Source: Methanobacteriota archaeon (GTDB lineage Archaea > Thermoplasmatota > Poseidoniia > Poseidoniales > Poseidoniaceae). Taken from it: 53,858 nt of DNA. The notes under the pieces were generated by a model. That model was not told where the DNA came from. It ran no database searches and was given only the letters and a program-made list of their open reading frames with translations. Position 1 is the first letter of the stretch; each line of letters begins with the position of its first letter. This document shows, piece after piece, positions 1,255 to 5,417 of the stretch. The DNA lies in contig WTJK01000040.1 of the NCBI GenBank assembly GCA_011524855.1, positions 7,641 through 61,498 of the forward strand, read 5' to 3'. A program made the translations under genes and the position numbers.

Positions 1255-3033
1255 TCAGCCGTTTTTCATGATCACTTCACTCAAGGGAGCCAGCGGTACC
1301 TTTGCGGTAGCAAACCACCGTTCAACGCTCTCGAACGGCGCTGCAGGGCCCCGTTTCCGTGCTGCTTTGGCCCGGGCAGCGACCAGCGACCACGCGGATT
1401 TCGTTCCGATACCGGGAACGGCGGCAAGTTGTTTCTCCGTCATCGTCCAAGGGTTGAGGTCCACTTCGATGCCGGTGATGGAACGGGCACCGTGGCCGGT
1501 CACGATCACGTCGGAGACCGTTTCAAGCGGAATCGTGTAGGATGCTCCAATGAGAATGGGGTACGCACCGAGTTGCCGACCAAAGGTGACGCCCGCTCGA
1601 CCGTGCACCTCGGGAGAAGTGTGGGCCTCGGTGAGGTGAACGGGCAGTCGCGTGCGCCCGTCGTGGGCTTCCCAGTGCACTTCGGACAAGCGTTGGCCCA
1701 AGGGGAAAAGTTCCTCCAGCAACGGCTTGTCGATCGTGTCCCGGACGGTTGCCTTGAACGAAGCAAACGCCGTTTCGGGTACGGCTTGGAAGCCCTCGCC
1801 CTCCACCTGACGGATGTTGATGCGGCGCAGCAGCAACCCGTCGGCGCGCAGGTCGTTCAGCAAGGCGAGGTTCATGCCGTACGTGGCTTCGGTTTCGCCG
1901 TTCAACCCGGCGATGAAGTTGAGGCCGGGCAGCAATTTCGGTAAACCGCGTTCACCGCGCACACGACCGTGCTTGTTGATCAGCCGCACCGCTGATTTCA
2001 GTTGAGCCGGGTCGCAATTCAACCAGTTGGCTTCGTGGACGGAGGGGTCGGCAGATTCGAGGCCAAAGGAAAGGACGGCACCGTCCGACAGGGTCTCAAC
2101 GAGCGTTTTGGTGATCGCCTCGGCCGGTTCAAGGTGCTCGGCGATGATGGACGGGTTGCCGTTGTCGGTGTGGAGCAGGGACAGCCGCTCGTCGTTGCGC
2201 AAGCCGTGGAGGAGTTGCGCGATGGGTTCGGGGTTGGGAACGGGGTACTCAAGCTCCCGAACGCCGTCGGCCATGTAGGTGTAAGTGTCGGTCATGCCGC
2301 CAAGACGGACGTGCTGCACACCAGCGTCGTGAGCGAGACGTACTTCTTCGATGATGTCCTCCGGGGTGCGCCACAGCGGCACGCCTTTCTTCGGCTCGAT
2401 GCAGAATTTGCAACCGCGCTTGTACCGTACGCAGCCCTGGTACACCTCGACCTCGAACGTCAGCGGTCCAGGCCCGTGGACGCCGTGCAGGTCCGGATGG
2501 GCATGAACGGCCAAGCTGGCGGCGCCGGCGTGCGCCCAAGTTGTCCATTGTTCGGACGTTCGGCGCCGATGATGCCATTCACCGGTGTTCAGAAAACCGT
2601 CCAGCGTGGCGTCGGTGTCCTGAACCGCAAGAAACAGGTTGGGTCGCAGCGGCTGCCATCCTTGTTGACGCCACCCCCGAATGGCCCATCCTCCCATCAG
2701 GACGGGGAGGCCCTTGGGGACGGACCTGAGCAGTTGTTGGGTTTCGTTGAGGGAGATGGGTGTGCCTCGCAGGTACTTGCCCGGCACCACGGCGCCCGCG
2801 ACGCAGACCACGCCCAAGGCGTGCTTCAGTACGTCCGCCACCTCGTCAGGTTGCTGGCGTTCCATGCGCCGCCATTGGTCGACCGTCAGGTAGAGGTAGG
2901 GCAAGCGGTGGGTTTCAAGCACGCCGCACACGTAGCGCACGTGGAATCCCACATAGGGCGGCACGCCAAACGCAGCGGGCTCGTCCTCGTAACCATCGAT
3001 GACCAGCCAACGCGGTTCGGTGGCCTCGGTCAT
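1255..3033 (-). CDS. Radical SAM protein with C-terminal helix-hairpin-helix (COG1031-like)
   Basis: 'VYQGCVRYKRGCKFCIEPKKG' Fe-S cluster motif; C-terminal HhH 'LAAVPGIGTKSAWSLVAARAKAA'. Confidence 0.75.
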   Translation of the reverse strand: MTEATEPRWLVIDGYEDEPAAFGVPPYVGFHVRYVCGVLETHRLPYLYLTVDQWRRMERQQPDEVADVLKHALGVVCVAGAVVPGKYLRGTPISLNETQQLLRSVPKGLPVLMGGWAIRGWRQQGWQPLRPNLFLAVQDTDATLDGFLNTGEWHHRRRTSEQWTTWAHAGAASLAVHAHPDLHGVHGPGPLTFEVEVYQGCVRYKRGCKFCIEPKKGVPLWRTPEDIIEEVRLAHDAGVQHVRLGGMTDTYTYMADGVRELEYPVPNPEPIAQLLHGLRNDERLSLLHTDNGNPSIIAEHLEPAEAITKTLVETLSDGAVLSFGLESADPSVHEANWLNCDPAQLKSAVRLINKHGRVRGERGLPKLLPGLNFIAGLNGETEATYGMNLALLNDLRADGLLLRRINIRQVEGEGFQAVPETAFASFKATVRDTIDKPLLEELFPLGQRLSEVHWEAHDGRTRLPVHLTEAHTSPEVHGRAGVTFGRQLGAYPILIGASYTIPLETVSDVIVTGHGARSITGIEVDLNPWTMTEKQLAAVPGIGTKSAWSLVAARAKAARKRGPAAPFESVERWFATAKVPLAPLSEVIMKNG

Positions 3034-3059: not shown

Positions 3060-4481
3060 TCAATCCTTCTTCGGGCGACGGCGACGGGAGCGCTTCTTGC
3101 CCGACCCGCCTTCCTCGCGGAGGGCTTGGAGTTCTCGTGCGGATTTTCCACCGGCGTCCTTGCCCCCGGAACGACCGCCGCCACCTTTGGCCTTGGCAAC
3201 ATCGACCTTGATGGTGCGCCCGTCGACCTCTTGACCGTTCAGGGCTTTCACCACGGCGTCGCCTTTGTCCTTCTCGGCAATGAACACAAATCCGAAGCCC
3301 TTGGATTTGCCACCGGGCCCGGTGGCCAAGGCCACTTCGTTGACCGTGGCGTGCTTGCTCACGAGCGCTTGGAGTTGGTCCGCTTTGGTCGAGAACGAGA
3401 GGTTGCCGATGTACAGCTTGAGGCCGGCCGGTTCAGCACGACGTCCGCCCTTTTTGTCGCCCTTCTTGTCGTCGTCTGCGTCGCGTACGCCGATCCGACG
3501 TCCGTTGATGCGGTGACCGTTGAGGGCCTGAATGGCTGCATCGGCCATGGCCTTGTTCGCATAGGTCACGAACCCGAAGCCTCGGTTCTGTCCGGCATCA
3601 TCGGTCAACACGATGCAGTCGGTCATGTCGCCATGGGCCTTGAACAACGCACGAAGTTCCTCGGTGCCCACATCACGGGGCAAACCACCAACAAACAGTC
3701 GGGTGCCGGGGGCTGCCTTAGGTGGACGGCCCCCTCGACCTCCGCCTTGGCCTTCGAACCGGAAGTAGGTGCGTTCCCGTCCGTCTTCGCGAACGTCGGC
3801 AGCGATGAAGGTGGCCCGGCCGGCGGGGCCTTTGGCGAACATGGCTTCGGCGGCAGAGCCCCAACGCTTGCCGGCGTTGTTGAGGGCACTGGCACCTTCT
3901 TCCAGTTCAGCCCAGCCTGCACCGTAGTTATCGGCGAGCGCCCGGTAGGATTGGTGGCCGCATGTGGGGCATTGCACGTTCCAGTCCCCGTCGAGGTGGG
4001 GTTGGAGGGTGTCGCCGCACGGAGGGCAAAGGGCGTGGAGCACACCGCAGTCGTTGCGCTCTCGGAAGTCGAGGCGCACCACGGGGCTCACCTCACGAAT
4101 CAGGGCTCGACACACGTCGCGGCGGCGAAGCGCATCCGAGGTTTGGTGCATGAAGCGGTCAACCAGGCCCGTGACGAAGAATTGGCCGTACAGGTGCTGA
4201 GGTTGAATGGACCCTTGCTTTCCCTCGATGGCGAGAAGTTTGGCTTCACCGTTCTTTTCGTTGAGTTTTTCGACGGCCACGATGGCGGTGTCACCAACGG
4301 CCGGTGTCACGACCGGTTTACCAGGAGCGACGGACACGACGCCGTCGGTGATGCTCACGTACCCAATGACGGTGGCGACGATGTGCTCGCCCTGAACCGT
4401 GGCACCCTCACCGGGGGTGTGGTCGTTGGGGCTACCGATGGTGCTTCCGGGTGTGACGAGGCTCGCCGTCATGTTGCTCAT
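3060..4481 (-). CDS. Exosome Csl4-like subunit fused to two RRM domains and a basic tail
   Basis: N-terminus 'MSNMTASLVTPGSTIG...' with S1-like region and zinc ribbon 'GVLHALCPPCGDTLQ...VQCPTCGHQSYRALADNYGAGW' resembles archaeal Csl4; then RRM1 (RNP2 'LFVGGL', RNP1 'RGFGFVTY') and RRM2 (RNP2 'LYIGNL', RNP1 'KGFGFVFI'); tail 'KKRSRRRRPKKD'. Listed ORF begins at a TTG at 4574; the ATG at 4481 or 4472 is more likely. Confidence 0.88.
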   Translation of the reverse strand: MSNMTASLVTPGSTIGSPNDHTPGEGATVQGEHIVATVIGYVSITDGVVSVAPGKPVVTPAVGDTAIVAVEKLNEKNGEAKLLAIEGKQGSIQPQHLYGQFFVTGLVDRFMHQTSDALRRRDVCRALIREVSPVVRLDFRERNDCGVLHALCPPCGDTLQPHLDGDWNVQCPTCGHQSYRALADNYGAGWAELEEGASALNNAGKRWGSAAEAMFAKGPAGRATFIAADVREDGRERTYFRFEGQGGGRGGRPPKAAPGTRLFVGGLPRDVGTEELRALFKAHGDMTDCIVLTDDAGQNRGFGFVTYANKAMADAAIQALNGHRINGRRIGVRDADDDKKGDKKGGRRAEPAGLKLYIGNLSFSTKADQLQALVSKHATVNEVALATGPGGKSKGFGFVFIAEKDKGDAVVKALNGQEVDGRTIKVDVAKAKGGGGRSGGKDAGGKSARELQALREEGGSGKKRSRRRRPKKD

Positions 4482-4570
4482 TCCTGTGGCAGGCATGGCC
4501 CGATGTGGGTCGCACGCCGTGTTCGCCGTTTTGAGGCGAGGGCTCTTCCCATTTGAACCCCCCTTACGGG

Positions 4571-5224
4571 TCAACTGTCCGGTGCATCGGGCAATTGGGC
4601 GTCACCGAGGCGGTGGAACCGCCAGCAGGTCACGTCGGTGTTGAGGGAGCGTTTGGTGTGATGGAGGTAGGCTGCCGGTAGGCGAAAGTCCGTTCGTATG
4701 AGGCGCTCGTGTTCCCAGCCCGCATCCCGCCCCATGCGTTCGAGGTGGGTGGCATGGGTGTGGTGGAGCACGTGAACGGCCCGCTTCGCTTTGGCAAATG
4801 CGGCCTCCAGCAGCGGGCGATCCGCTTTCGCCGTTTGCGTGCCCCACGGTGGGTTCGTGATCACGAGGTCCACCTGCGGTAAGTCGGTCTCGTCAACCCC
4901 AAGACGGTGGGTGAGGACGGTGGATCGCGAGGTGAACCCTTCGCCCAGCCCGGTCAAATTGGCGTTGAGTGCGATGATGGCGTCCTCGTCAACCTCAACA
5001 AAGGTCACGTGCTTGGCCCCGAGCATCAAACACGCCACGCCAAGCACACCGTTGCCGGCCCCCAAGTCAAGCACGGTGGCTCCCTCCAAACCGTCGGTTT
5101 CGTCCACCGCCAGCATCCAATATGCTGCCAGGTCACCTTCGGTGGCGTATTGCTCCAACTCCAAACGAAGGCAAGGATGGGGGGTCAACTTGGACAGTTG
5201 AATGGCCAAGTGTTTGGGGCGCAT
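4571..5224 (-). CDS. METTL5-like (COG2263) RNA methyltransferase
   Basis: 'LEQYATEGDLAAYWML', SAM motif 'VLDLGAGNGVLGVACLMLGA', catalytic 'ITNPPWGTQ'. Start chosen at MRPKHLAIQ; longest ORF extends to 5293. Confidence 0.85.
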   Translation of the reverse strand: MRPKHLAIQLSKLTPHPCLRLELEQYATEGDLAAYWMLAVDETDGLEGATVLDLGAGNGVLGVACLMLGAKHVTFVEVDEDAIIALNANLTGLGEGFTSRSTVLTHRLGVDETDLPQVDLVITNPPWGTQTAKADRPLLEAAFAKAKRAVHVLHHTHATHLERMGRDAGWEHERLIRTDFRLPAAYLHHTKRSLNTDVTCWRFHRLGDAQLPDAPDS

Positions 5225-5228
5225 GCCT

Positions 5229-5417
5229 TCACCAGCGTCGTTGCTGCTGATACGGGTTGGCTTGTTGAGCCTGCATTTGCAAGCGGTATGCATGGATCTG
5301 TTGTGCCTCCATGCGAAGGCGTTGGAGCAGCGGTTCCCCGGGTTGCTGGTTGCCGCAGTAGCGACAGAACTTCGTGCCGTCGGGATGTTGTTGGCCGCAA
5401 TTCACGCAGAACCCCAT
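5229..5417 (-). CDS. Small zinc-ribbon protein
   Basis: 'MGFCVNCGQQHPDGTKFCRYCGNQQPGE' with two CxxC pairs; stop is 4 nt before the methyltransferase start. Confidence 0.65.
   Translation of the reverse strand: MGFCVNCGQQHPDGTKFCRYCGNQQPGEPLLQRLRMEAQQIHAYRLQMQAQQANPYQQQRRW

Follow-up and report, generated by a model that had tools for sequence, protein, structure and literature searches.

A Csl4 exosome subunit naturally fused to RNA-recognition motifs in the marine archaeal order Poseidoniales

Introduction

How the archaeal exosome chooses its substrates is poorly known. The poly(A) preference of the Sulfolobus exosome comes from Rrp4 and DnaG, and the eukaryotic exosome works with separate adaptor proteins. 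The Poseidoniales, or Marine Group II, are abundant marine archaea that are uncultivated.

The cap subunit Csl4 has been altered experimentally in Sulfolobus. Its N-terminal domain is the main anchor to the Rrp41/Rrp42 ring, and Sulfolobus Csl4 alone binds poly(A) poorly and has little preference for it (PMC4227792). When Hou et al. (2014) joined the N-terminal domain of DnaG to the C-terminus of S. solfataricus Csl4, the resulting protein (Csl4-NT) bound poly(A) strongly, and the Csl4 exosome degraded poly(A) and a transcript with an A-rich tail faster (PMC4227792).

Here we describe a Poseidoniales gene in which Csl4 continues into two RNA-recognition motifs (RRMs). It lies in a stretch of 53,858 nucleotides that was analysed as a whole (hereafter the window). 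A search of non-subscription literature returned no earlier description of an archaeal Csl4-RRM link or of this fusion.

Results

Csl4 and two RRMs share one open frame

The fusion gene, its domains and its two neighbours are as follows.

3063..4481 (-), Csl4-RRM1-RRM2 fusion gene, 473 aa, open frame
4347..4460 (-), Csl4 N-terminal domain (Pfam ECR1_N, aa 8-45)
4047..4304 (-), Csl4 S1-type OB region (aa ~60-145; PRK09521 and 2ba1 alignments; AF2 strands E65-E138)
3921..4046 (-), Csl4 C-terminal zinc ribbon (C152-x2-C155-x15-C171-x2-C174)
3756..3896 (-), 'RW' linker module, 47 aa (N..GkRW..aAE..F..G.a.R...IaaD.ReDG)
3492..3698 (-), RRM1 (Pfam RRM_1, 77.5 bits; RNP2 LFVGGL, RNP1 RGFGFVTY)
3207..3416 (-), RRM2 (Pfam RRM_1, 49.4 bits; RNP2 LYIGNL, RNP1 KGFGFVFI)
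3063..3191 (-), basic Gly/Lys/Arg tail with a C-terminal helix conserved in family f1
3099-3143 (-), C-terminal helix GKSSRELQAxREE of f1 (aa 447-461; AF2 helix 448-461)
4571..5293 (-), METTL5-like rRNA/RNA adenine methyltransferase, directly upstream of the fusion (PDB matches)
1255..3033 (-), radical-SAM protein with a C-terminal HhH, directly downstream of the fusion (Pfam Radical_SAM, 2.4e-10)

Relatives are assigned below to three families. Family f1 is Poseidoniaceae, on the basis of the relatives in the close-relative scan; f2 is probably Thalassarchaeaceae, because the NCBI taxonomy lists no further family in the order; and f3, a sister group and third family of the same class, is probably Marine Group III.

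The frame of the fusion gene (3060-4574, minus strand) is open throughout, with no interruption. Translation from ATG 4481 gives 473 aa, one residue fewer than the 474 of the preliminary description, and ATG 4472 gives 470 aa; the latter is the start with MTxSLVTPG in nearly all f1 relatives (alignment A1). From the N-terminus, the protein consists of the Csl4 N-terminal domain, the S1 region, the four-Cys zinc ribbon, a linker, RRM1, RRM2 and the basic tail. The earlier proposal that Csl4, two RRMs and a basic tail occupy a single frame holds in every important respect. ECR1_N, 2ba1 and RRM_1 all match, none of them at chance level, and profile searches recovered both Csl4 and RRM.

The Csl4 half is recognized along its entire length. 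Pfam ECR1_N matches with an E-value of 8.5e-7 (29.1 bits against a cut-off of 27), and PRK09521, the NCBIfam model of archaeal Csl4, aligns over model positions 2-179 of 180 (E 4.6e-24). The window protein scores 85.2-88.1 bits against PRK09521, 2-5 bits below the curated cut-off of 90, which is exceeded in 107 of the 144 genomes of the relatives search, nearly all of them Poseidoniales, with a maximum of 128.6 bits. Archaeoglobus fulgidus Csl4 (2ba1) is the top PDB match of this half by sequence (phmmer, E 2.6e-14, aa 8-189) and ranks first in a Foldseek search with the AF2 model (E 2.8e-16, ~26% identity); the f2 fusion model also matches eukaryotic Csl4 chains. The zinc-ribbon cysteines are kept in 92/92, 92/92, 92/92 and 91/92 f1 sequences, all four together in 91/92. 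The fusion is a genuine Csl4 whose domain architecture is new.

In the C-terminal half, Pfam RRM_1 (gathering score 20.7) matches two stretches with an overall E-value of 7.8e-35, and among PDB sequences this half best matches proteins with tandem RRMs, for instance PABP, nucleolin and hnRNP A1/A2. The aromatic residues of the RNP motifs are strictly retained: F/F/F in 78/78 f1 sequences for RRM1, and Y/F in RNP2 with both F residues in RNP1 in 88/88 f1 sequences for RRM2. Three RNP positions are aromatic throughout all sequences of all three RRM groups.

The fusion is real and under purifying selection

A close-relative scan of 84,980 species genomes yielded 79 loci, 77 of them in Poseidoniales (one with the RRM half only, at a contig edge); the other two are bacterial stretches whose match is confined to the RRM part. 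The same fusion, which the preliminary description had suggested looking for in related genomes, is present in more than 75 other Poseidoniales contigs.

An assembly chimera, a frameshift or a contaminant behind the fusion has a negligible probability in our estimate. G132, G171 and G316 do carry the gene in two frames, with the break at three different places, and extra sequence or RRM copies occur in contigs L073 and L076 and in a few genomes. However, the same uninterrupted architecture with the same neighbours occurs in the more than 75 other contigs, including CM001443.1, a chromosome-level Marine Group II record of 2,064,136 bases (2.06 Mb), and two isolates, AG-333-I22 and AH-287-P07, whose record names resemble single-cell genomes. 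When the locus was checked for a frameshift or an assembly join between the halves, an uninterrupted fusion was found in dozens of independent assemblies, with dN/dS of ~0.03-0.2. By region, pairwise dN/dS is ~0.07-0.17 for Csl4, 0.03-0.09 for the linker, 0.04-0.11 for RRM1 and 0.06-0.23 for RRM2, with synonymous sites near saturation and part of the ratios not computable. All domains are under purifying selection. The relatives, this selection and the shared neighbours rule out the artefact or frameshift reading; the fusion is no assembly join, and the gene is not a pseudogene.

It is also very unlikely that the product is cleaved, or initiated separately, to give Csl4 and an RRM protein as two molecules. 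Low conservation of the Gly-rich hinge (aa 241-258) and of the 336-352 spacer would suit such a division, but no start-type codon is conserved between the halves. The best position, aa 214, is a start-type codon in 52/92 sequences and ATG in 48/92, and sits within the RW module; an internal translation start between the halves was therefore rejected for lack of a conserved candidate.

Several relatives depart from the common form. L073:738-2570 and L076:2998-4734 encode variants (611 and 579 aa) in which additional sequence separates the RRMs, and L073 has an apparent partial third RRM copy, possibly an assembly error. G057 (frames of 472 and 444 aa) and G097 (contigs C12 and C27) each contain two copies of the Csl4 fusion, and either a mixed bin or true paralogues are possible in both.

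The fusion is the only Csl4 beside a complete set of exosome partners

Profile search of the genome of origin (84% complete) found one Csl4, the fusion; a weaker second match is Rrp4, which lies beside Rrp41 and Rrp42. These genes belong to a cluster on contig C49, PsmA-SBDS-Rrp4-Rrp41-Rrp42, in which PsmA and SBDS are presumed names, given from the sequence and the known archaeal superoperon. A DnaG gene is present on contig C26. With Rrp4, Rrp41, Rrp42 and DnaG all present, loss of the exosome is ruled out. Contig C41 of the same genome (G000, 529-918; L160) encodes a third RNase PH-fold protein besides Rrp41 and Rrp42, clearly a bacterial-type RNase PH (TIGR01966, 244.7 bits against a cut-off of 141.5) that is unexpected beside an exosome.

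A separate canonical Csl4, the existence of which had been raised as an objection, appears neither in this genome nor among the relatives: no standalone Csl4 was seen in the 144 genomes of the relatives search, where the listed Csl4 matches of at least 70 bits all lie in long frames. Two Csl4 frames shorter than 300 aa are explained by a contig edge (G050) and by a frameshift with continuation in the next frame (G132). For comparison, the standalone Csl4 of f3 scores 132-166 bits.

The METTL5-like gene lies directly upstream, as had been claimed, with PDB matches to PH1948 (1wy7, 2.2e-25) and human METTL5 (6h2u, 2.2e-19), and it adjoins the fusion in nearly all loci. The radical-SAM gene is found downstream in most loci that reach that far. 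Its product matched no NCBIfam equivalog, and the linkage of this radical-SAM/HhH gene to METTL5 and Csl4 extends across the order.

Two arm designs on a probable single ancestral fusion

Sampling was in depth within Thermoplasmatota and went beyond the phylum through the close-relative scan. Every one of the 22 Poseidoniales genera sampled has RRMs, essentially always in the fused gene; those among the matches listed lie inside the fused frame. With few exceptions, f1 genomes have two RRMs and f2 genomes one: the f1 architecture is Csl4-RRM-RRM, and the f2 architecture is Csl4-CxxC-x17-CxxC zinc finger-RRM; f1 proteins of the window type have a second RRM instead of the zinc finger. In f2 this treble-clef finger between Csl4 and RRM scores 40.7-40.8 bits with TIGR04272 (cut-off 36) and 39.9 and 39.1 bits with PF23477 (cut-off 27). 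Pfam and NCBIfam profiles found no CxxC-x17-CxxC zinc finger in the window protein.

In f3, Csl4 is a standalone protein of 185-214 aa in most genomes, its gene adjoins METTL5 on the same strand, and the RRM is encoded by a separate gene (85-105 aa protein). In the other Thermoplasmatota sampled, RRM proteins are also standalone (81-158 aa) and occur in a minority of genomes. The shared METTL5 neighbour makes the fusion orthologous to the standalone Csl4 by synteny, and parsimony points to a single fusion event in the ancestor of Poseidoniales, after its split from f3. In f3 the RRM genes and Csl4 are on different contigs, so joining of two adjacent genes is unsupported as the route. In a tree of RRM domains (78 columns) the fused RRM groups are set off from the standalone RRMs (95/91); at this length the tree does not separate one capture followed by duplication from separate captures of f1 RRM1, f1 RRM2 and the f2 RRM.

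That RRM genes stand alone in f3 and in the other RRM-bearing Thermoplasmatota would fit a fusion that works also, or mainly, off the exosome as a general RNA chaperone or RNA-binding protein in the manner of the small bacterial-type RRM proteins, with the Csl4 part as a passenger or in part-time use. RRM2 matches an NCBIfam RNA-binding regulator model, and in Sulfolobus co-expression work Csl4 was sub-stoichiometric in the exosome (PMC2806925), both of which point the same way. We nevertheless consider this role improbable, as the protein is the sole Csl4 of its genome and keeps a full N-terminal domain and zinc ribbon under purifying selection, and the fused RRMs group apart from standalone RRMs.

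A conserved linker and a C-terminal helix flank the RRMs

The RW linker, placed behind the zinc ribbon, is the most conserved stretch of the protein, above the RRMs and Csl4, with the lowest dN/dS and a mean identity of 0.79. Its core, N..RW...D.R, is invariant and common to f1 and f2. A linker profile (A3) matched 59 of 60 Poseidoniales genomes. Each has a single copy, except G097 with two, and every copy lies within the Csl4 fusion; the profile found no match in the Thermoplasmatota genomes sampled outside Poseidoniales. Neither Pfam nor NCBIfam matched the linker, and the samples of the order and the phylum held no further copy; we rejected its assignment to a known domain. AF2 predicts weak helices in it. 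In the C-terminal helix, R449, E450, A453, E456 and E457 are invariant (alignment A1), and the helix looks like a short docking motif. Docking on the exosome or on a partner would most plausibly involve these two elements.

The same elements underlie the main rival to substrate recruitment, in which the main task of the fused RRMs is not substrate selection but localisation or tethering of the exosome, with ribosomes, nascent RNA or a protein partner as possible anchors, and the RW linker and SSRELQAxREE helix are protein-docking motifs. The linker, more conserved than the domains around it, and the invariant helix residues look like protein-contact motifs; the linker stays constant while the domain set varies between families; and the METTL5-like neighbour also favours a tether. 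On the other hand, the RNP1/RNP2 aromatics are 100% conserved, which suggests that RNA contact is under selection, and the exosome interactors SmAP and Nop5 of Sulfolobus are proteins in their own right (PMC7667871). Weighing these points, we regard tethering as unlikely. The RRMs may still have a role other than recruiting substrates.

Discussion

We propose that the fusion is an exosome Csl4 cap subunit whose C-terminus is permanently joined to a flexible RNA-capture arm, a reading to which we give a probability of about 0.7. A built-in substrate-recruitment adaptor, as the preliminary description put it, is the best-supported mechanism and has a direct laboratory precedent in Csl4-NT (PMC4227792), with RNA binding and exosome incorporation deduced from domain content and conservation. 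The conserved Csl4 domains suggest that the N-terminal domain would dock on the Rrp41/Rrp42 ring and that the S1 domain would sit at the pore, with the zinc ribbon on the outside. The RW linker and the Gly-rich hinge would then project two RRMs from the cap in f1, and the treble-clef zinc finger and one RRM in f2. By binding single-stranded RNA, the arms would concentrate it locally at the pore, and the cap would therefore select or hold substrates for 3'-5' phosphorolysis or A-rich tailing. Since the DnaG gene is also present, the RRMs would add to DnaG, as a second RNA-binding cap subunit, and not replace it. In this reading the fusion arose in the Poseidoniales ancestor and was later rearranged differently in f1 and f2. 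The two AF2 models (pLDDT 75 and 72; pTM 0.42 and 0.39) support the domains but not their arrangement, and that of the window protein (pTM 0.42) does not place the RRMs confidently with respect to Csl4. From the sequence, the fusion probably lets the exosome choose substrates.

More tentatively, and with odds that we put somewhat below even, the cap may be a covalent RNA-recognition platform throughout the order: RRMs would occur essentially only on Csl4, the RNA-binding module would be swapped (RRM-RRM or zinc finger-RRM) with the docking linker kept fixed, and mRNA decay or tailing would be sequence-selective with no separate adaptors.

Such a protein would put classical RNA-recognition domains directly on the exosome cap across one of the most abundant marine archaeal groups. 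The unfused state survives in the sister group f3, and the two families offer two alternative arm designs. This makes it possible to test substrate selection by the cap with a single recombinant subunit and its point mutants.

Among known proteins, A. fulgidus Csl4 (AF_0206; PDB 2ba1/3m7n) has ECR1_N, the S1 domain and the zinc ribbon in common with the fusion, and the standalone Csl4 of f3 has the METTL5 neighbour in common with it. Ordinary Csl4, however, stops right behind the zinc ribbon, with a chain of 179 aa in 2ba1 and 185-214 aa in f3, whereas the fusion has ~285 extra residues that make up the RW linker, RRM1, RRM2 and the tail. The tandem RRMs of eukaryotic two-RRM proteins (HuD, Sex-lethal, hnRNP A1 and PABP) are the best PDB matches to the C-terminal half in sequence and fold, but these proteins have no attached exosome subunit and the resemblance is at the domain level only. 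Small bacterial-type RRM proteins of the NF058537 type and standalone Thermoplasmatota RRM proteins have the same fold and RNP motifs and are the likely source of the fused RRM domain, although they are single-domain proteins of 80-160 aa that are not joined to Csl4. DnaG in the archaeal exosome is, like the RRM arms as proposed here, an RNA-binding cap component, and it raises poly(A) binding; unlike the fused RRMs, it is a separate subunit with a Toprim domain. The closest parallel is Csl4-NT, which also carries an RNA-binding domain on the C-terminus of Csl4. Csl4-NT was made in the laboratory with the N-terminal domain of DnaG, whereas the Poseidoniales fusion is natural and carries RRMs, and is thus a natural counterpart to a fusion that has already been built and tested.
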